Source: Plantactinospora sp. BC1 | GTDB lineage: Bacteria; Actinomycetota; Actinomycetes; Mycobacteriales; Micromonosporaceae | Assembly (NCBI RefSeq): GCF_003030345.1 | Contig: NZ_CP028158.1 | Span: 5,766,001-5,830,000 of the forward strand | Direction of reading: 5' to 3' | Length of the DNA: 64,000 nt | Shown: positions 24,685-39,322 of the stretch, one piece after another | How the letters are laid out: every line of letters begins with the position of its first letter | Position numbering within the stretch: the first letter of the stretch is position 1 | Program-made: the position numbers and the translations under genes | Notes under the pieces: model-generated | Told to the model about the DNA's origin: nothing | Database searches by the model: none | The model's input: the letters and a program-made list of their open reading frames with translations, nothing else

Positions 24685-26274
24685 TCAGACCTCGGCCGGG
24701 GTACGCGCCACCCCGTACGTCAGCGCGTCGACCAGTGCGTGCCAGCTCGCCTCCACCACGTTCGGGTGTACGCCCACCGTGGTCCAGTCCCGGCCGCCGC
24801 TGTCGGCGGTCTCCACCAGTACCCGGGTGATCGCGCCGGTGCCGTGGCTCCCCTCCAGGATCCGTACCTTGTAGTCGGCCAGCTCGAACCCGCGCAGCTC
24901 CGGGTAGTGCCGCAGCAGCGCCACCCGCAGCGCCTCGTCGAGGGCGTTGATCGGCCCGTTCCCCTCGGCGGTGGCGATCACCCGCTCACCGCGTACCCGG
25001 AGTTTCACCGTCGCCTCCGAGACCACCGCGCCGTCCTCGCGGTGCTCGACCAGCACCCGGTACGACTCCAGCGCGAACGGCCGCGGCGCGGTCATTCCGG
25101 GCAGCTCGGCCCGGACCAGCAGCTCGAACGAGGCGTCGGCGGCCTCGAAGGACCAGCCGCCGGCCTCCAGCTCCTTGACCCGCTTGGTGACCCGGGCAGC
25201 GGCGTCGGGATGGTCGGCCAGGTCCAGACCCAGCTCGCGGCTCTTCAGCTCGATGCTGGCCCGGCCGGCCATCTCCGTCACCAGGATCCGCATGTCGTTT
25301 CCCAGCACGGCGGGGTCCACATGGTTGTAGAGCAGCGGATCCACCTTGATCGCACTCGCGTGCAGCCCCGCCTTGTGGGCGAAGGCGGCGGCCCCGACGT
25401 AGGCCTGGTGGGTGTCGGGGGCGATGTTGGCGATCTCGGCGATGGCGTGCGAGACGCGCACCATCTGCTCCAGGCACCCGTCCGGTAGGACCGGTAGCCC
25501 GAGCTTGAGTTGCAGGTTGGCGACCACCGCGAAGAGGTCGGCGTTGCCGGGCCGCTCGCCGTAGCCGTTGGCCGTGCCCTGGAAGTGGCGTACCCCGGCC
25601 TCGACGGCGGCGATGGTGTTCGCCACCGCGCAGCCGGTGTCGTTCTGGGTGTGGATGCCGAGCCGGGCCGGCGAGATCCCGAGCCGCTCGGTCAGCTCGC
25701 CGATCGCGGCGGTCACCTGGGAGGGCAGCATCCCGCCGTTGGTGTCACACATCACCACGACCTCGGCGCCGGCTTCGAGGGCGGTCTCCACCACCGATGC
25801 GGTGTACGCCGGGTCGTGCCGGAAGCCGTCGAAGAAGTGCTCGCAGTCCAGGAAGGCCCGCCGCCCCTGCGCGACGAGGTGGGCCACGCTGTCCCGGACC
25901 ATCGCCAGGTTCTCCGCCGGGGTGGTCCGCAGCGCCCGCTCCACGTGCCGGACGTCGGACTTGGCGACCAGGCAGACCGCCGGGGTCTCCGCGTCCAGCA
26001 GCGCGCGCAACTGCGGGTCGGCGTCGACCGCCATCCCGGCCTTGCGGGTGGCGCCGAAGGCGACGAGGACGGCGTGCTTGAGGTCGAGTTCCGCCCGGGC
26101 CCGCCGGAAGAACTCGGTGTCCTTCGGCATCGCCCCCGGCCAGCCCCCCTCGATGAATCCGACGCCGAACTCGTCGAGCAGCCGGGCCACGGCCAGCTTG
26201 TCGACGACCGAGTAGCTGATCCCCTCGCGCTGCGCACCGTCGCGCAACGTCGTGTCGAACACCTGGTACGTCAT
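24685..26274 (-). CDS. cimA: Citramalate synthase
   Basis: Condenses pyruvate and acetyl-CoA to citramalate, giving 2-oxobutyrate for isoleucine independently of threonine; LeuCD and LeuB can carry the following steps. The 529-aa product has the DRE-TIM motif FDTTLRDGAQREG, metal-binding HTQNDTGCAVANT and FQGTANGYGERPGNADL, and a C-terminal LeuA-type allosteric domain (from about 400, with GNGPINALDEALR). ATG 26274 has AAGGAG upstream. A leader peptide and terminator hairpin precede it (26331-26424), suggesting Ile/Leu attenuation. It may instead be annotated as a 2-isopropylmalate synthase paralogue, but motif order and length favour CimA. Confidence 0.92.
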   Translation of the reverse strand: MTYQVFDTTLRDGAQREGISYSVVDKLAVARLLDEFGVGFIEGGWPGAMPKDTEFFRRARAELDLKHAVLVAFGATRKAGMAVDADPQLRALLDAETPAVCLVAKSDVRHVERALRTTPAENLAMVRDSVAHLVAQGRRAFLDCEHFFDGFRHDPAYTASVVETALEAGAEVVVMCDTNGGMLPSQVTAAIGELTERLGISPARLGIHTQNDTGCAVANTIAAVEAGVRHFQGTANGYGERPGNADLFAVVANLQLKLGLPVLPDGCLEQMVRVSHAIAEIANIAPDTHQAYVGAAAFAHKAGLHASAIKVDPLLYNHVDPAVLGNDMRILVTEMAGRASIELKSRELGLDLADHPDAAARVTKRVKELEAGGWSFEAADASFELLVRAELPGMTAPRPFALESYRVLVEHREDGAVVSEATVKLRVRGERVIATAEGNGPINALDEALRVALLRHYPELRGFELADYKVRILEGSHGTGAITRVLVETADSGGRDWTTVGVHPNVVEASWHALVDALTYGVARTPAEV

Positions 26275-26330
26275 GTGATCTCCTTCGAGAAGGGCGCGCA
26301 CCCCGCTCCGATGCCGTCCCGGCCTGACAA

Positions 26331-26361
26331 ACAAAATGACCCCCCGCGGATGCGGGAGGTC
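26331..26361 (-). terminator. Rho-independent attenuator hairpin upstream of cimA
   Basis: On the minus strand, GACCTCCCGC-ATCC-GCGGGGGGTC forms a 10-bp stem (one G-U pair) followed directly by ATTTTGT. It lies 56 nt before the cimA start, within the leader. A competing 10-bp stem with one bulge (between 26363 and 26393) lies just after the leader peptide. Confidence 0.75.
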
Positions 26362-26391
26362 TGCGCGCTCGGCGGGAAGGATGCCGGCGCG

Positions 26392-26424
26392 CTAGCTGCC
26401 AATAATGAGTGCGGAGCGGGTCAC
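26392..26424 (-). CDS. Candidate leader peptide for cimA attenuation (MTRSALIIGS)
   Basis: Ten codons from a GTG: GTG ACC CGC TCC GCA CTC ATT ATT GGC AGC TAG. Consecutive ATT ATT (Ile) codons, rare in this genome's GC-biased usage, follow a Leu codon. The stop codon touches the first arm of a hairpin (its G is the first paired base), and a U-tract terminator lies 30 nt further. A ribosome stalled at Ile codons would cover that first arm. No strong Shine-Dalgarno is visible; a CAGAGT box seven bases before the GTG mirrors the leaderless arrangement at ilvB. Confidence 0.6.
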   Translation of the reverse strand: MTRSALIIGS

Positions 26425-26596
26425 GGACCGTACTCTGCCACGCCGTCACGGATCTGGGAGGAAAAATCCACATCGCGGGACTGGTCACCGGATCTCGGCT
26501 CGCCGAATTCCCCTGGTGTAGGGATCGACCACCCTGGGTAGGTGTCTTCGGGACAGCGGAGAACGTCGAGACAGTCGAGAAGAGGAGTGATAGCCA

Positions 26597-27070
26597 GTGG
26601 ACAGGCTCGATCCTCAGACGACCCCGCAGCAGACGCCGGATCCTCTGATCCATGGCGGCGGTGGTGCCTTCGCGGGCGGAGCGCCCGCGGGCGAGTTCGA
26701 CCCGTGGCGCTACCGGGACGACGCCGGGGTGACCGGCGCCGACCTGGTGGGCTACAAGGTGGAGGCGACCGACGGCGGCATTGGCAAGATCGACAGTGCC
26801 AGTCACGAGGTCAACGCCAGCTACCTGGTGGTGGACACCGGCCCGTGGATCTTCGGCAAGAAGGTCATGTTGCCGGCCGGCGTGGTGAACCACGTCGACC
26901 ACGACGACCAGAAGGTGTACGTCGACCGGAGCAAGGACCAGATCAAGGCCGCTCCGGAGTTCGACGGCGCCACGCACGAGGATCCGGCCTACCGGGACAA
27001 GCTCGGTGGCTACTACGGCGGCACGTACGGCGCCTCGGGCTGGACGGTTCCGCCGGGCCGCGCCATGTGA
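26597..27070 (+). CDS. PRC-barrel domain protein
   Basis: 157 aa. A flexible N terminus (about 1-40) precedes a PRC-barrel-like domain (about 42-115: GADLVGYKVEATDGGIGKIDSAS, then YLVVDTGPWIFGKKVMLPAGVV). The C terminus is rich in Gly and Tyr (GGYYGGTYGASGW). PRC barrels often bind RNA or photosynthetic/ribosomal partners; actinobacterial versions are commonly stress-associated, but the role here is unknown. GTG 26597 has AGAGGAG nine bases upstream. It is divergent from the cimA leader. Confidence 0.85.
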   Translation: MDRLDPQTTPQQTPDPLIHGGGGAFAGGAPAGEFDPWRYRDDAGVTGADLVGYKVEATDGGIGKIDSASHEVNASYLVVDTGPWIFGKKVMLPAGVVNHVDHDDQKVYVDRSKDQIKAAPEFDGATHEDPAYRDKLGGYYGGTYGASGWTVPPGRAM

Positions 27071-27191
27071 CACGCGACCCGCAGTCGACTGGCCGGTGGG
27101 GCTCCGCCCCGCCGGCCAGCGGCGTCCTACCCGCCGGAAGGCGCGATCGCCGGCCCGGACCGGCGCTCCCCGCAGGCACTACGGTGGTCGG

Positions 27192-27929
27192 GTGGATGGA
27201 ACTTCGACGCGTACGACGACCTTCCAGAACCTCTTCAACTTCCGGGACGTCGGCGGCGTCGCCGGGCTCGACGGCCGGCTGGTCCGCCGGCAGCGGTTGT
27301 ACCGGTCGGACTCACCGCACCGGATCGACGGCATCGACCGGGAGGCGTTCGAGGCGCTCGGCATCCGCACCGTGATCGACCTGCGCCGGCCCGCCGAGGT
27401 ACGCCAGCACGGCCGGGTACCCGCCTACGACGGCCTGGTCTACCAGCACATCCACCCGGAGCACGCGCTCTGGCAGGAGTCCGCGTACGCCGAGGAGATC
27501 GGGCTGGCCCGCTGGCTGGCCGACCGCTACCACGACCTGGCCAGCACCGGCTCGGCGGGCCTGGTGGCGGCGCTGGAGGTGATCGCCGACGCCGAGGCCG
27601 CCCCGGTACTGGTGCACTGCGTGGCCGGGAAGGACCGCACCGGCGTGGTCTGCGCGCTGGCCCTGTCGGTCCTCGGCGTCGCCGACGCCGACATCGCCGA
27701 GGACTACGCCCGGAGCACCGCCGCCTCGGCCCGGTTCAGCGAGTGGCTGGCCAGCACCATGCCGGACGAGCCGCCGCTGCCGGCCCCGTTCCTCGCCTCG
27801 CCGGCCGAGGCGATGACCCTGTTCCTGGCCGAGCTGCGCGACCGGCACGGTTCGGTGCCGGACTACCTGGTCGGCGCCGGCCTGGCCCCGTCCCGGATCG
27901 ACGCCCTCCGCACCCACCTCCTGAGCTGA
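27192..27929 (+). CDS. Tyrosine-protein phosphatase (PtpB-like)
   Basis: 245 aa. FNFRDVGGV near residue 14, RLYRSDSPHRI, and the P-loop HCVAGKDRTGV (Cys-X5-Arg) with the extra Lys-Asp characteristic of PtpB/triple-specificity phosphatases. It may act on phosphotyrosine, phosphoserine or phosphoinositide substrates. GTG 27192 is chosen because it yields MDGTSTRTTTFQNLFNFRD; earlier in-frame starts run into the PRC gene. It is convergent with ilvE across a terminator. Confidence 0.88.
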   Translation: MDGTSTRTTTFQNLFNFRDVGGVAGLDGRLVRRQRLYRSDSPHRIDGIDREAFEALGIRTVIDLRRPAEVRQHGRVPAYDGLVYQHIHPEHALWQESAYAEEIGLARWLADRYHDLASTGSAGLVAALEVIADAEAAPVLVHCVAGKDRTGVVCALALSVLGVADADIAEDYARSTAASARFSEWLASTMPDEPPLPAPFLASPAEAMTLFLAELRDRHGSVPDYLVGAGLAPSRIDALRTHLLS

Positions 27930-27935
27930 CCCGCG

Positions 27936-27984
27936 CCGCCCGCCGCACCCACCGCGCGCCGTCGGGCGGGGGTGCGGCGGGCGG
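27936..27984. terminator. Bidirectional terminator between ptpB-like gene and ilvE
   Basis: A perfect 15-bp stem (CCGCCCGCCGCACCC and its complement) with a 19-nt loop between two convergent genes. Confidence 0.75.
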
Positions 27985-27988
27985 ACGC

Positions 27989-29086
27989 TCAGCCGATCCG
28001 GTGGATCCAGCCGTTGCGGTCCTCGGCCCGGCCCCGCTGGATGTCGACGAGCTGCTGCCGCAGTCGCATGGTGACCTCGCCGGGACTGCCGTCGGCGATC
28101 GGGAACTCCCCGTCCGGGTAGCGCACCTGGCCGATCGGGGTGATCACGGCGGCGGTACCACAGGCGAAGACCTCGCGCAGCCGGCCGCTGGCCGCGTCGG
28201 CCCGCCACTCGTCGAACGCCACCGGCCGCTCCAGCACCGTACCGCCGGACTGCCCGATCAACGTGATCAACGATTCCCGGGTGATGCCGCGCAGGATCGT
28301 ACCGCCGAGCGGCGGGGTGACGATGCTCCCGTCGTCGTAGACGAAGAAGATGTTCATGCCACCGAGTTCGTCGACGTACCGCCGCTGCACGGCGTCGAGG
28401 AAGACCACCTGGTCGCAGCCGTGCTCCATCGCCTCGGCCTGGGCCGCCAGCGAGGCGGCGTAGTTGCCGCCGAACTTCGCCTCGCCGGTGCCGCCGGGCG
28501 CGGCCCGGGTGTAGGTGGGCGAGACCCAGACGTCGACCGGCTGCACGCCCCGGGCGAAGTACGAGCCGACCGGCGAGGCGATCACCACGAAGAGGTACTC
28601 GTTGGCCGGGCGCACCCCGAGGAAGACCTCGTTGGCGAACATGAACGGCCGCAGGTAGAGGCTGGCCTCGTCGGTGGTGGGCAGCCAGGCCCGGTCGATC
28701 TCGATCAGGTGCCGTAGCGAGTCCAGGAACACCGCCTCCGGCAGCTCGGGCATGGCCATCCGCCGGGCCGAGTCGTTGAACCGGGCGGCGTTCGCGTCCG
28801 GCCGGAACATCGTCACCGAGCCGTCCGCCGCCGAGTACGCCTTCAGCCCCTCGAAGATCTCCTGGGCGTAGTGCAGCACCGCGCTCGCCGGGTCCATCGG
28901 GATCGGCGCCCGGGCCTCCACCCGGGCGTCGTACCAGCCCTTGCCCTCGGCGTACCGGATCGTGACCATGTGGTCGGTGAAGACCCGACCGAATCCCGGG
29001 TTGGCCATCAGCGCCGCGCGCTCGGCGGCGGCTACCGGCTGAGGATTCGGACGGATCTCGAAGTCGAGCTTGTCACCACCGCTCAT
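27989..29086 (-). CDS. ilvE: Branched-chain amino acid aminotransferase
   Basis: Last step of Ile, Val and Leu synthesis, moving amino groups between glutamate and the branched 2-oxo acids. 365 aa, class IV aminotransferase: the PLP lysine lies in GEAKFGGNYAASL, with AQEIFEGLKAY and VFLDAVQRRYVDELGGMN conserved. ATG 29086 has GGAGG eight bases upstream. It is 186 bp downstream of leuB on the same strand, so co-transcription is possible. Confidence 0.95.
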   Translation of the reverse strand: MSGGDKLDFEIRPNPQPVAAAERAALMANPGFGRVFTDHMVTIRYAEGKGWYDARVEARAPIPMDPASAVLHYAQEIFEGLKAYSAADGSVTMFRPDANAARFNDSARRMAMPELPEAVFLDSLRHLIEIDRAWLPTTDEASLYLRPFMFANEVFLGVRPANEYLFVVIASPVGSYFARGVQPVDVWVSPTYTRAAPGGTGEAKFGGNYAASLAAQAEAMEHGCDQVVFLDAVQRRYVDELGGMNIFFVYDDGSIVTPPLGGTILRGITRESLITLIGQSGGTVLERPVAFDEWRADAASGRLREVFACGTAAVITPIGQVRYPDGEFPIADGSPGEVTMRLRQQLVDIQRGRAEDRNGWIHRIG

Positions 29087-29272
29087 CGTGCTGACCTCCA
29101 GAGAGTGGACCGGCGCCCGGGGACGGGCGGCCGGAACGTGGGAGTTGTGCCTGAAACTTACCCGAACGGTCGTTCAACCTCGACCCTCCGGGCGACCGGC
29201 GGGCCGCACCACCCGCGCCTTCGCGCAGATCCGGCGGCCTGCCAGGCTCTGCGGGCGGAACGGGCGGGCGGC

Positions 29273-30310
29273 TCAGGAGGCCGCGTGGGCGGCGAGCCGG
29301 TCTCCGATGTCGGCGGTGCGCCGTGCCGAGCCGGGGCCCCGGGAGGCGAGCTCGGCGGCGACCGCCTCGGTTACTCGGCGGGCCGCGTCGGGGTGGCCCA
29401 GGTGGTCGAGGAGCAGCGCGGTGGAGAGCACCGCGGCGGCCGGGTCGGCGACGCCCTGGCCGGCGATGTCCGGCGCCGAGCCGTGCACCGGCTCGAACAT
29501 CGACGGGTACGCCCGCTCGGGGTTGATGCTGCCGCTGGCGGCGAGCCCGATCCCGCCGGTGACGGCGGCCGCGATGTCGGTGAGAATGTCCCCGAAGAGG
29601 TTGTCGGTGACCACCACGTCGTAGCGCTGCGGCTGGGTGACCAGGAACATCGCGGCGGCGTCGACGTGCTGGTATTCGGTCTCGATGTCCGGGTGCTCGG
29701 CGGCGACCGAGGCGAAGGCCCGGGCCCAGAGCGAGCCGGCGTGGGTCAGCACGTTGGTCTTGTGCACCAGGGTGACCTTGCGGCGCTCCCGGCGCCCCGC
29801 CCGGGCGAACGCGTCCCGGATCACCCGCTCGACGCCGTGCCGGGTGTTCAGGCTCTCCTCGGTGGCGATCTCGGCCGGGGTGTCCCGGTGCAGCGTGCCG
29901 CCGGCCCCGGCGTAGAGGCCCTCGGTGCCCTCCCGGACGACCACCAGGTCGATCTCGTTCGGCTTGACGCTGGCGAGCGGGCCGGCGGTGCCCGGCCAGA
30001 GCCGGGACGGCCGGAGGTTGACGTACTGGTCGAACTCGAAGCGGAGCTTGAGCAGCAGGCCGCGCTCCAGCACCCCGGGCGGCACGGTGGGGTCGCCGAC
30101 CGCGCCGAGCAGGATCGCGTCGTGCCCGGCCAGCTCGGTGAGCACGGAGTCGGGCAGCACCTCGCCGGTCCGGTGGTAGCGGGCGGCCCCGAGGTCGTAC
30201 TCGGTGGCCTCGACCCCCGGCAGTACGGCGTCGAGCACCTTGCGGGCCTGCGCGACCACCTCCGGCCCGATGCCGTCGCCAGCCACCACCGCGATCCGCG
30301 CCACCGCCAC
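29273..30310 (-). CDS. leuB: 3-isopropylmalate dehydrogenase
   Basis: Oxidative decarboxylation of 3-isopropylmalate in leucine synthesis, and of the citramalate-derived intermediate when CimA is used. 345 aa with [12 protein letters not shown], the catalytic Tyr/Lys region, and [16 protein letters not shown]. The start is GTG 30310 with GGGAG upstream. About 70-90 bp before it lies a 20-bp motif shared with the leuC/IclR region and overlapping a TTGACA box, suggesting IclR control. Confidence 0.95.
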
Positions 30311-30378
30311 GTCCCAGCTCCCTTGCCTCCGTCGTGTCTAGGGAACGTTAAGGGACCGTCCCGGCTCCCGGTACGCCA

Positions 30379-30400
30379 CTCCCAACATCTGGAATGTCAA
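30379..30400 (-). promoter_or_regulatory. leuB promoter element with candidate IclR operator
   Basis: Minus strand GACATTCCAGATGTTGGGAG (30398-30379) matches the leuC/regulator site in 15 of 20 positions. Its first bases are part of TTGACA (30400-30395), a consensus -35 box. It also contains the small inverted repeat ACAT-N5-ATGT. A clear -10 box is not evident. Confidence 0.45.
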
Positions 30401-30514
30401 CTGCACAGGAGCTTCTCAGCCAGTACTCATGCTCTGGCCATCTTCGCTTCCTATGGTGAGCGCGGAGAACGGCTCGCGGGCTGGCGACGGCGACCGGGCC
30501 GGAGGGGCGAGACG

Positions 30515-30556
30515 CGGATCCAGGGGGCGAACGTGCGGATCCAGGGGGCGAACATG
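30515..30556 (+). repeat. 21-bp tandem repeat at the 5' end of the ApbE gene
   Basis: CGGATCCAGGGGGCGAACGTG is repeated with one mismatch (second copy ends ACATG) and a third degenerate copy follows. In the ApbE frame it reads RIQGANV/RIQGANM/RIPGG. The repeat supplies two alternative start codons (GTG 30533 and ATG 30554). Confidence 0.75.
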
Positions 30557-31411
30557 CGAATCCCGGGCGGCCGAAGTCGGGGACAGCGTAGCCGGAGCCT
30601 GCCGCCGGCGCCCGCCGTAGGCCGGGGACGGCCGGACCTGCGGTTGGGCGCCGGCTGGCGCAACGTCCGGCCCGGCGCGACCCTGACCGACCGGGTGGTC
30701 GCCCGGCACACCGTGCAGACCTCGATCGCCGAATACACCCTGGTGCTCAACGGCATGGGTGCGGTCGGCTGGCGCGGCGTCGGCGACGCGCTGCGGGACG
30801 CCGTCGCCGAACTGCGGGCCATCGACCTCACCTACAGTCCGGCCCGGCCGGAAAGCCTGGTCTCCCGGCTGCGCCGGGGCGAGATCTCCGCGGACGCGTA
30901 CCCGCCGCTGGCCGACATCGTCGCCCGGTGCGCCGCGATGCGGGCCGCCACCGACGGCTGGTTCGACGCCTGGGCGGTGCCCGGCGGCTTCGACCCGGGC
31001 GGCCTGCTGGTCGGCTGGGCGGTGGAGCGGGCCGCCGCCCGGCTGCGCGCCGCCGGCATCGAGGACTACGCCGTGATCAGCGGCGCGGATCTGGTGGTAC
31101 GCGGCCACGCGCCGCACGGCGGCCCGTGGCGGGTCGCGGTGCACCACCCGACGCAGGGCGACCGGCAGCCGATGATGCTGGAGATGACCTCCGGGGCGAT
31201 CGGCACCTCCGGCGTCGCCGGCCGGCGCGACCACGTGGTCGACCCGCACACCGGGCAGCCGGCCGACAAGCTGCTCGCGGCCACGGTCACCGGCCCGGAC
31301 CTGGCGGTCGCCGACGGGTACGCGACCGCGCTCTTCGCCGCCGGGCGCCCCGGCCTGGACTGGTTCCCCACCCGGGACGGTTACCGGGCCCTCTTCGCCA
31401 CCGCCCGCTGA
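30554..31411 (+). CDS. FAD:protein FMN transferase (ApbE family)
   Basis: 285 aa. ApbE enzymes attach FMN covalently to Thr/Ser of flavoproteins, usually outside the membrane. Recognisable parts are DAWAVPGGFDPGGLLVGWAVERAA and SGAIGTSGVAGRRDHVVDPHTGQP, the metal/FAD-binding core. No signal peptide or lipobox is visible, and no obvious target flavoprotein is nearby. The start is uncertain because a 21-bp tandem repeat creates in-frame GTG 30533 and ATG 30554; the N-terminal 40 residues are basic and low in complexity. Confidence 0.82.
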   Translation: MRIPGGRSRGQRSRSLPPAPAVGRGRPDLRLGAGWRNVRPGATLTDRVVARHTVQTSIAEYTLVLNGMGAVGWRGVGDALRDAVAELRAIDLTYSPARPESLVSRLRRGEISADAYPPLADIVARCAAMRAATDGWFDAWAVPGGFDPGGLLVGWAVERAAARLRAAGIEDYAVISGADLVVRGHAPHGGPWRVAVHHPTQGDRQPMMLEMTSGAIGTSGVAGRRDHVVDPHTGQPADKLLAATVTGPDLAVADGYATALFAAGRPGLDWFPTRDGYRALFATAR

Positions 31412-31870
31412 CCCTGCCCGGCGCGGCCCTGCCCCTGCCCGACGGCCCTGCCCCTGCCCGACGGCCCTGAGTCGGCCCGGCAGCTCATTGCCGACTCCCG
31501 TCACCGCACGCAGTGCACGGCCACCCAGGTGATCAGACCGTGGAGCGACGGGTCCGGCGGCGCAAGCGCGATCGGCCCCCGCGATCTCGGCAACGATCGC
31601 GGGGGCCGATCAGCGACGAGTGCGCGTGGCTCGCGCACACGGGGGTGCTGGCTACCCGGCCGGCGCGACGCCTCATCACCCGAAGACGAGCCCACGCCTA
31701 GGAACTCACCGGGTATCCGCGTCAATACGCTATAGACCCGACGCGAGTCCCCGCAAGAGTCGCCCTTCCGCGTGTCGGCGGGGTATCCGAGAAAAGGTCG
31801 CCGACTCAGTGGCACCCTGTACCCCCGTGAGTTCTGATCTGTCAACACTCTTGGGACACGGGAGCCCGGT
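31412..31870. other. Intergenic stretch with short repeats and a long palindrome
   Basis: About 460 bp. It contains a 19-bp tandem duplication (GGCCCTGCCCCTGCCCGAC at 31425-31443 and 31444-31462), then a 17-bp inverted repeat (31570-31611). A minus-strand open frame of 115 codons spans the palindrome but has no coding character, so I do not call it. Confidence 0.5.
31570..31611. repeat. 17-bp perfect inverted repeat
   Basis: GATCGGCCCCCGCGATC and its exact complement around the 8-nt loop TCGGCAAC. It may act as a terminator for apbE, although it is 160 bp past the stop with no T tract; a dispersed intergenic repeat is an alternative. Confidence 0.6.
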
Positions 31871-32224
31871 GTGAGCTTCGATCTGATCGTATGGGCGCTC
31901 GGGGCCGGCGCCGCCGACGAGGACGTACGCGCGGCCCACGGCCGGTGCCGGCAGGGTGTCCATGCCGAGGGGAGTCCGGACCGGCGGATCTCGGCGTTCT
32001 ACCGGGCGATCACCGCGGGCTATCCGGACCGGCCGGGGCCGGGTACGCCGTGGGCGGTGACCCCGCTGCACGTCGCCGCCGACCACGTCGAGATGAAGCT
32101 CGACGAGTCCTGTGCCGACCAGGTGCTGCTCGACATCGAACGGTTGGCCGCGCAGCACGGCCTGATGCTGCTCGACCCGCAGGACGGCTCGGTCTATCCG
32201 CCGCCGACCCCGGTGAACGGCTGA
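31871..32224 (+). CDS. Conserved hypothetical protein
   Basis: 117 aa starting at GTG 31871 with GGGAG upstream. It opens SFDLIVWALGAGAADEDVRAAH and has WAVTPLHVAADHVEMKLDESCAD and LLDPQDGSVYPPP. I recognise the style of a small actinobacterial family but cannot name a function; no membrane segment or catalytic motif is seen. It is convergent with serA and its stop is followed directly by a terminator stem. Confidence 0.7.
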   Translation: MSFDLIVWALGAGAADEDVRAAHGRCRQGVHAEGSPDRRISAFYRAITAGYPDRPGPGTPWAVTPLHVAADHVEMKLDESCADQVLLDIERLAAQHGLMLLDPQDGSVYPPPTPVNG

Positions 32225-32263
32225 CCCGGGCGGGGCGACCGTACCCCGATCGCCCCGCCCGGG
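32225..32263. terminator. Bidirectional terminator between the hypothetical gene and serA
   Basis: A perfect 14-bp stem (CCCGGGCGGGGCGA and its complement) with an 11-nt loop. It starts immediately after the TGA of the upstream gene. Confidence 0.75.
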
Positions 32264-32283
32264 CCGCAGGTGTCAGGCGCCGC

Positions 32284-33885
32284 TCACACCTCGTCGCGCA
32301 GGTCGGCGGCGCTCGCCGCGACCGCGCCGATCGAGTCGGCGGCCGAGCTGAGCAGCTCGGCCGCGGTCGCCGAGTCCACGGTCAGGGTCATCAGCGCCTC
32401 GCCGCCGGCCTCCCGGCGGGCCACCTGCATCGCCGCGATGTTGACGCCCGCCTCGCCGAGGATCGAGCCGATGCTGCCGACCACGCCGGGCTTGTCGACG
32501 TAGCGGAAGAAGAGCAGGATGCCGTCCGCGCCGAGTTCCAGGTCGAAGCCGTCCACTTCGGTCAGCTTGAGCACGTCGCGGTTGCCGGTGTGCACGGCGG
32601 TGCCGGAGACGGAGACGGTCCGGCCGTCCGGCAGCGCACCGTGCACGGTGACCAGGTTCGGGTGGTCGATGGTCTCCGCGTGCGTGGTCAGGGCCACCGT
32701 GACGCCCCGGTCGGCGGCGAGCAGCGGCGCGTTGACGTAGCTCACCTGCTCCTCGACGATCGAGGTGAAGATGCCCTTCGTGGCGGCCAGCTTCAGCACC
32801 GAGACGTCGTTGGCGACGATCTCGCCGCGCACCTCGACGGTGACGCTGGCGGCGACCCCGCCGGCCACCGCCGTGAAGACCTTGCCGAGCTTCTCGGCCA
32901 GCGGCAGCAGCGGCCGGACGTCCTCGGCGACCACGCCGCCGGCCTGCACGTTCACCGCGTCCGGCACGAACTCGCCCTGGAGGGCGAGCTTGACGCTGCG
33001 GGCCACCGCAAGGCCCGCCTTGTCCTGCGCCTCGGCGGTGGAGGCGCCCAGGTGCGGGGTGGCCACCACGTTGTCGAAGGCGAAGAGCGGCGAGGCGGTG
33101 CAGGGCTCCTTGGAGTACACGTCGATGCCGGCGCCGCCGACCCGCCCCTCGGCGATCGCGTCGGCCAGCGCCTGCTCGTCGATCAGGCCGCCCCGGGCCG
33201 CGTTGACGATCCGGACCCCCGGCTTGACGAGGGCGAGTTCCTTCTCACCGATCAGACCGACCGTCTCCGGGGTCTTCGGCAGGTGGATCGAGATGAAGTC
33301 GCTCTCCCGGAGCAGCTCCTCCAGCCCGACCAGGCGTACGCCGAGCTGCGCCGCCCGGGCCGGTTGCACGTACGGGTCGTACGCGATCAGCCGGGTGCCG
33401 AAGGCCGCGATCCGCTGCGCGAAGAGCACCCCGATCCGGCCGAGCCCGACCACGCCCACGGTCTTGCCCTGGATCTCCACCCCGGTGTACTTGGACCGCT
33501 TCCACTCCCCCGCCTTCAGCGCGGCGCTGGCGCTCGCCGTGTTCCGGGCGACGGCCAGCAGCAGCGCGAGCGCCTGCTCGGCGGCGGAGACGATGTTGGA
33601 GGTCGGCGCGTTGACCACCATCACGCCCCGGGCGGTCGCGGCCGGCACCTCGACGTTGTCCAGCCCGACGCCGGCCCGGGCGACCACCTTGAGTCGGGGG
33701 GCGGCGGCGATCGCCTCGGCGTCGACCTGGGTGGCGCTGCGTACGATGACCGCGTCCGCCTCGGCGAGCGCGCTGAGCAGGGCAGGGCGGTCGGTACCGT
33801 CGACGTGGCGTACGTCGAAGTCGTGCGCGAGCACGTCGATTGCGGCGGGAGCGAGCTCTTCAGCGATCAGTACGACGGGAGTCAT
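32284..33885 (-). CDS. serA: D-3-phosphoglycerate dehydrogenase
   Basis: First step of serine synthesis, NAD-dependent oxidation of 3-phosphoglycerate. 533 aa, the long actinobacterial form: substrate/NAD core (VVGLGRIGVLFAQRIAAFG, NAARGGLIDEQAL, catalytic His in TPHLGAST), an intervening ASB domain (about 320-450), and a C-terminal ACT domain (FFRYVDKPGVVGSIGSILGEAGVNIAAMQVAR) that binds serine for feedback inhibition. ATG 33885 has GAGGA upstream. It lies downstream of the mannosyl-3-phosphoglycerate synthase gene, another 3-phosphoglycerate user. Confidence 0.95.
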   Translation of the reverse strand: MTPVVLIAEELAPAAIDVLAHDFDVRHVDGTDRPALLSALAEADAVIVRSATQVDAEAIAAAPRLKVVARAGVGLDNVEVPAATARGVMVVNAPTSNIVSAAEQALALLLAVARNTASASAALKAGEWKRSKYTGVEIQGKTVGVVGLGRIGVLFAQRIAAFGTRLIAYDPYVQPARAAQLGVRLVGLEELLRESDFISIHLPKTPETVGLIGEKELALVKPGVRIVNAARGGLIDEQALADAIAEGRVGGAGIDVYSKEPCTASPLFAFDNVVATPHLGASTAEAQDKAGLAVARSVKLALQGEFVPDAVNVQAGGVVAEDVRPLLPLAEKLGKVFTAVAGGVAASVTVEVRGEIVANDVSVLKLAATKGIFTSIVEEQVSYVNAPLLAADRGVTVALTTHAETIDHPNLVTVHGALPDGRTVSVSGTAVHTGNRDVLKLTEVDGFDLELGADGILLFFRYVDKPGVVGSIGSILGEAGVNIAAMQVARREAGGEALMTLTVDSATAAELLSSAADSIGAVAASAADLRDEV

Positions 33886-34087
33886 TGGTCCTCGTATATG
33901 TCGTCCGGGCGAGGTCTGCGGCCACGTGGGCGCCGCACTGCGTCCCGCGCTTCCGGCCATTCGGGTGCTTCCCTGCGGTGCGGACGCACCTGTCTGCCGA
34001 TCGTAGGCGTCCTGCTGCGCACGGTGCGGCGCAGAACCGCGTGAGTGCCCTCACAAGGCGCACCGACCGGCGTGTTCCGCCGACGGC

Positions 34088-35323
34088 TCAGGCGGAGGTG
34101 AAGACCTCGGATCCGGGCAGTGCGGAGCGGGGCCGCAGCAGCGACCGGGTGCCGAGCTGGCGGAACGTCCCCGCCTCGCTCTCCAGTACGTCGCGGAGCA
34201 GGTCCAGGTCGAGCGAGCCGACCGGCGGGTAGATCCGCTCCCGGGGCGGCTCCTCGCCCGGCGCGATCGCCTGCTGGGCGAGCATGAAGTCGAGGATCGC
34301 CTCGCGGACCGGCGGCAGCGCGACCGGCGAGTGGTAGAGCACGTTCAGCGCCTGCATCCGCATGCCCTGGACGTGGTCCTCGCCCTTGTTGTCGTGGAAG
34401 TGCGGGTTGCGGGTCTCGATCTGGAGTACCGGGACGGAACTCGCCATCACCTCGGGATGGGTGGTGTCGAGCACCCCGCCGAACTGTTCGAAGAGTTCCA
34501 CGAACTCGAAGGGCTCCACCGCGAAGCCGCCGGCCAGCCGCATCCGCAGCCCGAGGTCGAGACTGAGCGCGTGTTCGCCGGCATTGCCGGTGGCGATCAC
34601 CTCGGTACCGAAGCCGGAATACTCGGCCACCAGCCGGTTCAGGAACTCGTTGGTGATCTCGGAACTCCGGCCGCGCCGGCTGAAGAAGAGGCGCCCGTCC
34701 CGCAGTTTCGGCTTCGAGTGCCAGGAGATCCGGACCATCGCGTACGGATTGGCCGCGAGGTGCAGGCCGGCGGCGTACACCTTGACGTACTCGTGCACGG
34801 CGCCCGGTACGTAGTTGTCGGCGTCGATGTAGCCGAGGTACTTCCGGCCGGTCAGCGCGGCGACCGCCATGCCGATCAGCATCGCCTCGCCCTTGCCGGC
34901 CCGGACCAGCCCCTCGTCGTCGATCAGCTCGGGCATGCCGGCGGCCTTGACGGCGGCGGCCAGTCCCGGGTCCCGCTGGTGCACCATGATCGCCGGCCGC
35001 TCGGTCGCCCGGCAGTACTGCTCCAGGGTCTGGGCTTCCATGTCGTAGCGATCGACCGGGTGCCGGGCGCTGTTCGAGACGAGCACGATCAGACAGTCGT
35101 GTGGAATCCCCGAGAGCACACCTTCGATTACTCTGCGTGTCTCGTTCATGCAGGGAATGACGATGACCATCTGCCGCTCGATCGCGCGCATCGCCGCGTG
35201 CGAGACGATCCCCTCGGCGGTGGTCCCCGTGGCGTCTCCCGAGTCCAGCTGTATGACACGCTGGAGTTCGTGGATACGGACGGCGCCGAAACGCTCGGTA
35301 CGGTGCGATTGCTCCAGACGCAT
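34088..35323 (-). CDS. mpgS: Mannosyl-3-phosphoglycerate synthase (GT55 type)
   Basis: 411 aa. Transfers mannose from GDP-mannose to 3-phosphoglycerate, the first step to the compatible solute mannosylglycerate. The N terminus MRLEQSHRTERFGAVR closely follows the Thermus-type enzyme. Also present are VIVIPCMNETRRVIEGVLSG, the metal-binding DXD region GYIDADNYVPGAVHEY, MVRISWHSKPK and TGNAGEHALSLDL. I start at ATG 35323 because homology begins there; in-frame ATGs at 35350 and 35374 would add residues including a TTA codon. No phosphatase partner (mpgP) is visible in the window. Confidence 0.87.
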   Translation of the reverse strand: MRLEQSHRTERFGAVRIHELQRVIQLDSGDATGTTAEGIVSHAAMRAIERQMVIVIPCMNETRRVIEGVLSGIPHDCLIVLVSNSARHPVDRYDMEAQTLEQYCRATERPAIMVHQRDPGLAAAVKAAGMPELIDDEGLVRAGKGEAMLIGMAVAALTGRKYLGYIDADNYVPGAVHEYVKVYAAGLHLAANPYAMVRISWHSKPKLRDGRLFFSRRGRSSEITNEFLNRLVAEYSGFGTEVIATGNAGEHALSLDLGLRMRLAGGFAVEPFEFVELFEQFGGVLDTTHPEVMASSVPVLQIETRNPHFHDNKGEDHVQGMRMQALNVLYHSPVALPPVREAILDFMLAQQAIAPGEEPPRERIYPPVGSLDLDLLRDVLESEAGTFRQLGTRSLLRPRSALPGSEVFTSA

Positions 35324-35527
35324 GCGGCGACAGTACCCGAGCGGACGCATTAACCGCCCGTAACCGCCGACCATTTCCTGACGCCACCGCCGTGGATGGC
35401 GATTGGACGTCTATTGGCAATGATCTGGAAACTCGGCGGAGGAAGATCGGGTACCGGAAGAATGTTCCCGCCGGATGCGGCCGCCGCCCCGGACCGGTAT
35501 CCTCACCGGCCCGGGGCCGCCGCTGTG

Positions 35528-36610
<1,083 letters not shown>

Positions 36611-37126
36611 TCAGGCGGCCCGCAGCGCCGAACCGGTGGTGATCGAACGGGAGCCCCGCCCGATCGCCACCAGGCCCGACTGCACCATTTCCTTGATTCC
36701 GAACGGTTCGAGATCGCGCAGCAGCGCGTCCAGCTTGTCAGCGGTGCCGGTCGCCTCGATCGTGAGGGTGTCCGGCGCGACGTCGACCACCCTGGCCCGG
36801 AACAGGTTCACCGTCTCCAGCACCTGGGCCCGCTGCGAGCGGTCGGCCCGGACCTTGACCAGCACCAGCTCCCGGGCCACCGAGACGCCCGGATCCAGCT
36901 CGACGATCTTGAGTACGTTGACCAGCTTGTTGAGCTGCTTGGTGACCTGCTCCAGCGGTGAGGTCTCGGCGTTGACCACGATGGTGATCCGGGAGACGTC
37001 CGGGTTCTCCGTCTCACCGACCGCCAGCGAGTCGATGTTGAAGCCCCGGCGGGAGAAGAGCCCGCTCACCCGGGCCAGGACACCCGGCTTGTTCTCCACC
37101 AGCACGGACAGCGTGTGCTTGCTCAT
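36611..37126 (-). CDS. ilvN: Acetolactate synthase small (regulatory) subunit
   Basis: 171 aa. The N-terminal ACT domain (LSVLVENKPGVLARVSGLFSRRGFNIDSLAVG) binds valine for feedback inhibition of the IlvB catalytic subunit; a second ACT-like C-terminal domain follows. ATG 37126 (MSKHTLSVL) lies ten bases after the ilvB stop, so the two subunits are tightly coupled. Confidence 0.96.
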   Translation of the reverse strand: MSKHTLSVLVENKPGVLARVSGLFSRRGFNIDSLAVGETENPDVSRITIVVNAETSPLEQVTKQLNKLVNVLKIVELDPGVSVARELVLVKVRADRSQRAQVLETVNLFRARVVDVAPDTLTIEATGTADKLDALLRDLEPFGIKEMVQSGLVAIGRGSRSITTGSALRAA

Positions 37127-37136
37127 CTTCCCGGCC

Positions 37137-39074
37137 TCACAGCTCGTCGTCGTCGAAGGCGGGGCGGACCCCACGGGCGAACATGATCTCGTCGTTGCTG
37201 GTGCCGGCGGCCACCATCGGCCAGACCATGGCGTCCTTGCCGACCACGAAGTCGATCACCACCGGCGCGTCGTTGATCTCCATCGCGGCCTTGATGGTCT
37301 TGTCCACGTCGGCCTTGCTCTCGCAGCGCAGCCCGACGCAGCCGAGCGCCTCGGCCAGCTTGACGAAATCAGGAATCCGGTGCTTGTGGGTGCCCAGCTC
37401 GGTGTTGGAGTAGCGCTCGCCGTAGAAGAGCGTCTGCCACTGCCGGACCATCCCCAGGTTGCCGTTGTTGATCACGGCGATCTTGACCGGGATCCCCTCC
37501 AGGGCACAGGTCGCCAGCTCCTGGTTGGTCATCTGGAAGCAGCCGTCGCCGTCGATCCCCCAGACCACGGTCTCCGGCTTGCCGACCTTGGCGCCCATCG
37601 CCGCCGGCACCGCGTAACCCATGGTGCCCAGGCCTCCGGAGTTGAGCCAGGTGTACGGCTTCTCGTACGAGACGAACTGTGCCGCCCACATCTGGTGCTG
37701 CCCCACCCCGGCCACGTAGATCGCCTCCGGGCCGGCGATCGCGCCCAGCCGCTCGATCACGTACTGCGGGGCGAGGGTGCCGTCGGTCGGCTCGTCGTAG
37801 CCGAGCGGGTAGCGGTCGCGCAGGTCGTCGAGCTGCGCCCACCACTCGGTCCGGTCGATCGCCGCGGTCTGCCCGGCGGTGGCGGCCCGGACCGCCTCGA
37901 TCAGCTCGTCGATCACGTATTTCGCGTCACCGACGATCGGCACGTCGGCGGCGCGGTTCTTGCCGATCTCCGCCGGGTCGATGTCGGCGTGCACGATCGC
38001 CGCCCCCGGGGCGAACGAGTCCAGCTTGCCGGTCACCCGGTCGTCGAACCGGGCCCCCAGCGCCACGATCAGGTCCGACTTCTGCAGGGCGTAGACCGCG
38101 GCGACCGTGCCGTGCATGCCGGGCATGCCGAGGTGCTGCGGGTGCGAGTCCGGGAAGGCGCCCCGGGCCATCAGCGTGGTCAGCACCGGGATGCCGGTCA
38201 GCTCGGCCAGCTTGCGCAGCCCCTCGGTGGCGCCGGCCTTGAGCACGCCGCCGCCGACGTAGAGCACCGGGCGGCGGGCGGTGGTCATCAGCCGGGCCGC
38301 CTCGCGGATCTGCTTGCCGTGCGGGTGCAGGGTCGGCCGGTAGCCCGGCAGGTCCAGGGCGGGCGGCCAACTGAAGGTGGTCTGCGCCTGGAGGACGTCC
38401 TTGGGGATGTCGACCAGCACCGGGCCGGGCCGGCCGGTGGCGGCCAGGTGGAACGCCTCGGCCAGGATCCGCGGGATCTCCTCGGCGGTCTGCACCAGGA
38501 AGTTGTGCTTGGTGATCGGCAGGGTGATGCCCTGGATGTCCGCCTCCTGGAAGGCGTCCGTGCCGATCGCCGGCCGGGCCACCTGACCGGTGATCGCCAC
38601 CATCGGCACCGAGTCCATGTACGCGTCCGCGATCGGCGTGACCAGGTTCGTCGCCCCCGGACCCGAGGTGGCGATGCAGACGCCGACCCGGCCGGTGGCC
38701 TGCGCGTACCCGGTGGCGGCGTGCCCGGCGCCCTGCTCGTGCCGGACCAGGATGTGCCGCACCGACGAGTCGTAGAGCGGGTCGTACGCCGGCAGGATCG
38801 CCCCACCCGGGATGCCGAACGCGACCTCGACGCCGAGCGCCTCCAGCGACTTGACCAGCGAACCGGCCCCGGAGACCTGGACCGGTGCCACCACCTGCCC
38901 GCCCGCGGCACCCCGGCTCGGCTCGGCGAGCGGACCGGACTGGTCGCCGGCCGGCTGGGCACCCGGGCGGAGTCGGCGGGGGAACTGGTCGGCGGGGTCG
39001 TTGCTCCCCTCGGCGGGGGCGGACCGGTGACGCCGCGCGCTGTTGGCCAGGGTCTCGGGTGTGGGTCTCGTCAT
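37137..39074 (-). CDS. ilvB: Acetolactate synthase large (catalytic) subunit
   Basis: TPP-dependent condensation of pyruvate with pyruvate or 2-oxobutyrate. 645 aa: catalytic Glu in [19 protein letters not shown] region [17 protein letters not shown], and TPP/Mg motif [15 protein letters not shown]. The first 60 residues are a Pro/Arg/Ala-rich extension before [20 protein letters not shown]. Starts at ATG 39074. Its leader (39234-39358) carries a leader peptide and terminator, indicating transcription attenuation by Val/Leu/Ile supply. Confidence 0.96.
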
Positions 39075-39223: not shown

Positions 39224-39258
39224 CAATAAAAACGGCCCTCGTGCTGATGCACGGGGCC
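39224..39258 (-). terminator. Attenuator terminator upstream of ilvB
   Basis: Minus strand GGCCCCGTGC-ATCA-GCACGAGGGCC, a 10-bp stem with one bulged A, followed directly by GTTTTTATTG. It lies about 160 nt before ilvB, one base from the preceding pause-type hairpin at 39260-39286. Confidence 0.82.
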
Positions 39259-39259
39259 T

Positions 39260-39286
39260 GCGCACTCTCGGGAGTCGAGAGTGCGC
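39260..39286 (-). promoter_or_regulatory. Leader hairpin of the ilvB attenuator
   Basis: A perfect 11-bp stem (GCGCACTCTCG and its complement) with a 5-nt loop that starts at the base after the TGA of the leader peptide. A ribosome stalled on the last sense codons would cover its first arm. Confidence 0.75.
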
Positions 39287-39322
39287 TCAGATAAGTACTC
39301 GGAAGGACCTGGTCGCAGACAT
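39287..39322 (-). CDS. ilvB leader peptide (MSATRSFRVLI)
   Basis: Eleven codons ending GTA CTT ATC TGA, that is Val-Leu-Ile-stop, so all three branched-chain amino acids are sensed. GTA and CTT are unusual codons in this GC-rich genome. The ATG lies seven bases after a CAGGCT -10-like box with a TTGACT -35 box 17 bp upstream (39330-39358), so the transcript probably begins at the ATG itself (leaderless). The promoter overlaps the last codons of the upstream GGDEF-EAL gene, whose stop is at 39327. Confidence 0.75.
   Translation of the reverse strand: MSATRSFRVLI

Follow-up and report, generated by a model that had tools for sequence, protein, structure and literature searches.

In the trp and his attenuators of enterobacteria, a stalled ribosome masks one strand of the leader RNA, and the antiterminator overlaps the terminator. 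The closest described systems to the locus studied here are the actinobacterial ilvB leaders, in which a short peptide with branched-chain amino acid codons is followed by a hairpin beside a terminator, as in IlvL of Streptomyces lividans (PMC8079986) and ilvB1 of Mycobacterium tuberculosis (PMC13236596), and the ilvL leader or ilvB-II motif of Corynebacterium glutamicum is another close relative (PMC11857589; PMC10272879). In the published model for M. tuberculosis ilvB1, ribosomes at the stop codon mask the antiterminator and stalled ribosomes allow it to form, and induction is lost in a mutant with LVVI changed to AAAA (PMC13236596). Transcripts are reported to begin with the start codon or directly beside it both in S. 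lividans IlvL (PMC8079986) and in C. glutamicum ilvL (PMC11857589). The LEU element of leuA resembles the cimA leader described below in that a leader peptide precedes a gene for an enzyme of one superfamily with citramalate synthase, but it is described as a pseudoknot in which a run of Leu codons pairs with the Shine-Dalgarno sequence, whereas the cimA leader carries Ile codons and an intrinsic terminator; that paper covers trp, ilvB, leuA, leuS, cys and ileS (PMC1262725).

The window, by which we mean the whole analysed stretch of 64,000 nt from Plantactinospora sp. BC1, carries on its minus strand a cimA gene whose product exceeds the cutoff of the citramalate synthase model and scores below the cutoffs of the LeuA models. 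Citramalate synthase starts the threonine-independent isoleucine route. Read 5' to 3' on the minus strand, the region consists of a candidate -10 element, 7 bases, a GTG frame, a hairpin (P1), 1 base, a terminator (T), its tail and cimA:

26432–26437, minus strand: candidate -10 hexamer CAGAGT, 7 nt before the GTG, from the sequence
26392–26424, minus strand: leader peptide frame MTRSALIIGS, ten codons, with GTG at 26424–26422 and TAG at 26394–26392
26406–26404 and 26403–26401, minus strand: Ile codons ATT ATT, 14 and 11 nt before P1
26363–26392, minus strand: hairpin P1, 10 bp with one bulged A, beginning at the stop codon, from folding and covariation
26338–26361, minus strand: intrinsic terminator T, 10 bp with a 4-nt loop, from folding, terminator scan and covariation
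26328–26337, minus strand: U-rich tail ATTTTGTTTG, the expected termination zone, from the terminator scan
24685–26274, minus strand: cimA, citramalate synthase, the presumed controlled gene (TIGR00977, 596.5 bits, cutoff 450; ATG at 26274)
26597–27070, plus strand: 157-aa frame, divergent from the cimA leader, with no NCBIfam match

An earlier note on this DNA had described the ten-codon frame with its two ATT codons, the bulged 10-bp hairpin starting at the stop codon and the 10-bp terminator with a U tract before cimA, and each is confirmed at the position listed. The leader folds more stably than expected from its dinucleotide composition (1 of 200 shuffles at least as stable; z -3.1), and the terminator scan returns one site in it, against 0.3 (sd 0.6) in shuffles.

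The distribution of the element was followed with a covariance model, R1, built from an alignment (A1) of 64 of 121 cimA loci, which comprised the window's own locus, the 30 best-scoring from its family, the 30 best-scoring from its class and 60 spread loci (40 class, 20 family) chosen to cover genera and families. TIGR00977 scored above its cutoff in 245 of 250 family genomes and 113 of 148 class genomes. In a search of the whole genome, R1 finds the window's cimA leader at 87.3 bits (E 2.5e-19), a score that is not independent, this leader being one of the 64 training sequences. At a threshold of E <= 0.01, matches upstream of cimA were obtained at 107 of the 121 loci (86/100 and 21/21), including 51/51 from the window's family and 56/70 elsewhere in the class; outside the training set, 43 of 57 loci match, some of them closely resembling training loci. 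Of the 32 families sampled, 27 have a match before cimA, those lacking one being f7, f18, f23, f26 and f36, and 13 of the 14 misses come from these families or are single loci in f27 and f35. The loci with cimA and no R1 leader include L047, L049, L053, L057, L071 and L072 in f18 and L087, L088 and L089 in f26. Among named cimA loci, taken as the best 80 among the matches listed, R1 matches 63, one of which is identical to a training leader, and among the genera with a match are Micromonospora, Asanoa, Streptomyces, Kitasatospora, Amycolatopsis, Lentzea, Pseudonocardia, Nonomuraea, Sphaerisporangium, Actinomadura, Cellulomonas, Kribbella and Modestobacter. Pseudofrankia and Nakamurella leprariae are among the 17 named loci without an R1 match, as are 14 records assembled from metagenomes. 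We count the 14/121 and 17/80 cimA loci without a match against the attenuator explanation. A diverged leader was sought over 330 nt in these 14 and 17 loci (L230 having no cimA start), and in the remaining 30 the top terminator score was 28.2 (L085) and the others were 23.9 or less, compared with 26–46 for leaders among the matches listed. From these low scores, the element is absent from most of the unmatched loci and not just diverged there, with L085 as a possible exception.

For scoring, 90 leaders (alignment A3, the 107 matches minus 17 near-duplicates) were combined with the 63 named ones to give 153, among which L066 and L178 are identical; only ATG and GTG were scored as start codons. 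A leader frame with Ile is present in 152 of the 153, and in 148 an Ile codon lies 10–12 nt before P1, in the position that we call the control slot, occupied by ATT in 123 of them and by ATC in 25; in the window it is the second ATT (26403–26401) that takes this slot. The position of the stop codon relative to the base of P1 varies from -5 to +23 nt (67 leaders at -2, 31 at +10 and 21 at +16), and the Ile codon nevertheless stays in a fixed register with P1. A NANNNT hexamer stands 5–9 nt before the chosen start in 88/90 and 57/63 leaders, a count that is not independent, since the start was chosen partly by the hexamer; the position of this -10-like hexamer suggests that the leader peptides may be leaderless. 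ATT accounts for 220 of 335 Ile codons in the leader tails as against 69 of 1785 in the parts of the cimA coding sequences that were read. Both ATT and ATC are decoded by one tRNA in most bacteria, and the preference for ATT in the leaders may therefore instead keep the RNA open. According to one model of attenuation, sensitivity requires that specific synonymous codons be used at the regulatory positions, and an appeal to "rare codons" by itself is an oversimplification (PMC1183508).

The fixed register and the agreement of the codons with the gene's pathway speak against reading the structure as a plain terminator or as some other RNA element (a riboswitch, a T-box or a protein site) beside which the short frame would be incidental. 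A terminator ahead of a gene can insulate that gene, but the upstream frame at 26597–27070 on the plus strand points away from the leader, and no Rfam family reaches its gathering score at the leader, the best weak match having E 1.1, at chance level. No T-box model reached gathering anywhere in the window, and none appeared among the matches up to E 10 at the leader. An explanation of this kind is most improbable.

Both P1 and T covary. Across the 90 leaders of A3, 96.4% of cells are paired, and double changes occur in 11 of the 16 pairs, with 125 cells against 26.9 (sd 9.8) in shuffles, counts that lean towards the structure because the alignment is model-fitted and the sequences are related; structures slid along the same alignment reach 34.5–61.7% paired and at most 23 double-change cells. 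Alignment of homologous leaders, the check proposed in the earlier note, yields conserved Ile codons and double changes in both stems, and the main proposal of that note, that cimA would be controlled by Ile-dependent leader attenuation, is strongly backed by this conservation. The spacing of the two hairpins is nearly invariant, P1 and T being separated by no unpaired base in 136 of the 153 leaders, by 1 in 11 (as in the window) and by 3 in 6. P1 and T of the cimA leaders hence abut without overlap, whereas the antiterminator and terminator described for C. glutamicum share three bases. In a scan of A3 column pairs for a third helix, 12 pairs passed, of which five are model pairs of P1 or T, one (121–169) extends T and the remaining six are isolated, so that no third covarying helix was found in this alignment.

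The earlier note had assigned the antiterminator to a pairing between the P1 loop and the 3' arm of the terminator. Such a pairing is present in the window, at -14.2 kcal/mol compared with -21.5 for the terminator arms, and some Micromonosporaceae leaders show it on inspection by eye, but its mean strength is no better than chance provides. Over 41 Micromonosporaceae leaders it averages -13.0 kcal/mol where shuffled loops give -12.2 (sd 3.6), over 112 other leaders both the true and the shuffled loops give -10.2 kcal/mol, and in neither group does it exceed the pairing of swapped loops. An antiterminator of this kind is very improbable, and of the view that cimA is attenuated by Ile as ilvB is by its own leader, the peptide, the Ile codons and the terminator stand as conserved parts and the antiterminator is not supported. 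Pairings of the leader tail with the 5' arm of T, of the P1 arms with the T arms, and of the leader tail with the 3' arm of P1 were tried as well and rejected, being at most 0.03 kcal/mol better than shuffles.

The reading that we prefer, to which as a whole we assign a probability of roughly 0.6, is a ribosome-mediated attenuator that senses charged tRNA-Ile and in which P1 would act as the antiterminator by abutting T; that cimA is under Ile-responsive attenuation of some form, taken by itself, is very probable. It draws on the elements, their conservation and covariation, the codon register and the match of codons to pathway, from which translation of the frame, a response to Ile and antitermination by P1 are predicted. 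Transcription would begin at or beside the GTG, and the ribosome would therefore load without a Shine-Dalgarno sequence. When Ile is ample, the ribosome would run on to the stop codon, where its leading edge would mask the 5' arm of P1, so that P1 would be blocked, T would fold and transcription would stop near 26330. When Ile is scarce, the ribosome would halt with an Ile codon in its A site, 11–14 nt before P1, where its edge would only touch P1 and leave it closed; P1, flush with T, would then prevent T from closing at the polymerase, so that cimA would be transcribed. The front edge of a ribosome lies about 12–13 nt beyond the start of the A-site codon. With an edge of this size, 7–35 nt of P1 would be covered by a ribosome that has come to the stop codon, and equilibrium folding then gives P1 a mean pair probability of 0.01, compared with means of 0.91 and 0.60 for a ribosome at -14 and -11, respectively. 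T has a pair probability of 0.94–0.96 in every ribosome state, and the two hairpins can thus coexist at equilibrium, which counts against P1 as antiterminator, as does the drop of P1 to 0.60 with the ribosome at -11. That flush P1 would block the completion of T is proposed because T is predicted throughout and none of the base-pairing antiterminators tried beats the shuffles. As in the enterobacterial trp and his attenuators, stalling at control codons is proposed to decide the fate of the terminator, but unlike in those systems no overlapping antiterminator was found in the cimA leader; the masking of P1 from the stop codon would follow the same logic as in M. tuberculosis ilvB1 (PMC13236596).

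An alternative keeps the Ile-sensing attenuation and gives P1 the role of a pause or anti-antiterminator hairpin, the antiterminator being a transient or unrecognised pairing. It agrees with the formation of both P1 and T at equilibrium, and the three-hairpin model for C. glutamicum ilvBNC includes a pausing antiantiterminator (PMC11857589). In the same organism, expression falls by 80% when the start codon of ilvL is lost (PMC11857589), which, if transferable, is the opposite of what an antiterminator role of P1 predicts and fits the pausing role better. Against this alternative, a ribosome at the conserved Ile codon stands before P1 and not on its 5' strand, and neither a third covarying helix nor an alternative pairing better than shuffled sequence appeared, which leaves it rather unlikely. 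Codon substitution ahead of S. coelicolor ilvB is reported to have been without effect (PMC1262725), a result that counts against codon control in the actinobacterial group. If the attenuator with P1 as abutting antiterminator does operate, the threonine-independent Ile route would have its own Ile feedback at the level of the transcript in 27 of 32 actinomycete families sampled.

For SCO5529, which we take to be the cimA gene of S. coelicolor, the literature matches listed consist of one paper, on the Lon protease. In the largely open-access literature on the regulation of citramalate synthase or cimA, no cimA attenuator and no account of Ile feedback on the cimA transcript were found among the matches listed, in agreement with the earlier note, and the words "citramalate" and "cimA" are absent from the main text of PMC8079986, PMC11109978 and PMC2965389.

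The relationship to ilvB is visible within the window itself, where R1 has a second site upstream of ilvB, at 39224–39311 of the minus strand (33.9 bits, E 9.2e-5); a third match in this genome (17.9 bits, E 2) was taken as chance. The genes cimA, ilvE, leuB, serA and ilvB lie on the minus strand within one stretch of 15 kb (24685–39074), and the features beyond the cimA leader are as follows:

27989–29086, minus strand: ilvE
29273–30310, minus strand: leuB
32284–33960, minus strand: serA
37137–39074, minus strand: ilvB
39224–39322, minus strand: ilvB leader, ATG at 39322, peptide MSATRSFRVLI, TGA at 39289–39287
39286–39260, minus strand: P1 of the ilvB leader, same build as in the cimA leader
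39258–39234, minus strand: terminator of the ilvB leader with U tract, same build as in the cimA leader

Of 30 ilvB loci of the class, 28 have an R1 match at E <= 1, 23 of them also at E <= 0.01, and these leaders share with those of cimA the order and spacing of frame, P1 and terminator. The slot at -11 holds the rare Val codon GTA, which makes up 32 of 1714 Val codons in ilvB frames, in all 21 ilvB leaders scored; left out of this count were L240, L242, L251, L254 and L259 as weak matches, L249 and L261, whose leader was overwritten by an antisense match, and L244 and L258, which have no match, and by eye GTA stands in leader context in 8 of these 9 loci, L258 being the one without it. Two loci of the ilvB set encode MRTRILVLGKRVG, the published S. 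lividans IlvL (PMC8079986). The cimA leaders differ from the ilvB leaders in the gene that follows and in the slot, which holds Ile (148/153) and not GTA (21/21), and given this exchange cimA seems to carry an actinobacterial ilvB-type attenuator retuned to isoleucine. Since ATT in cimA and GTA in ilvB share one slot, sensing by the attenuator could be examined through a one-codon change.

In a sample of the phylum, 75 of 296 genomes have R1 matches at E <= 0.01, and 63 of the 75 lie outside the class. Eighteen loci from these genomes (L138–L155) were read by eye, and 11 are ilvB-like, one is leuA-like, one leuB-like and one cimA, the downstream frame being ambiguous or cut in four. Outside the class, the leader before the leuA-like gene (L138, genome G443) ends in NLLLT with CTT in the slot, and the one before a leuB-like and ilvE-like pair located 2 kb ahead of cimA (L142, genome G519) ends in AVIIIE; the one before cimA (L149) ends in VAIIIIR. 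Judging from ilvB, cimA, L138 and L142, the control codons tend to correspond to what the gene behind the leader serves to make. A more general and tentative view, somewhat doubtful as it stands, is that actinobacteria share one modular "flush-hairpin" attenuator, in which a single slot about 11 nt before P1 would set the specificity, with GTA for ilvB, ATT for cimA and CTT for the one leuA-like case, and a non-overlapping P1 would sterically stop T; flush hairpins of this kind would call into question the need for an overlap between antiterminator and terminator. Among the 63 matching genomes outside the class, 49 have a cimA over the cutoff, and the R1 site lies within 80 nt of cimA in three (G626, G479 and G448) and about 2 kb upstream of it in seven.
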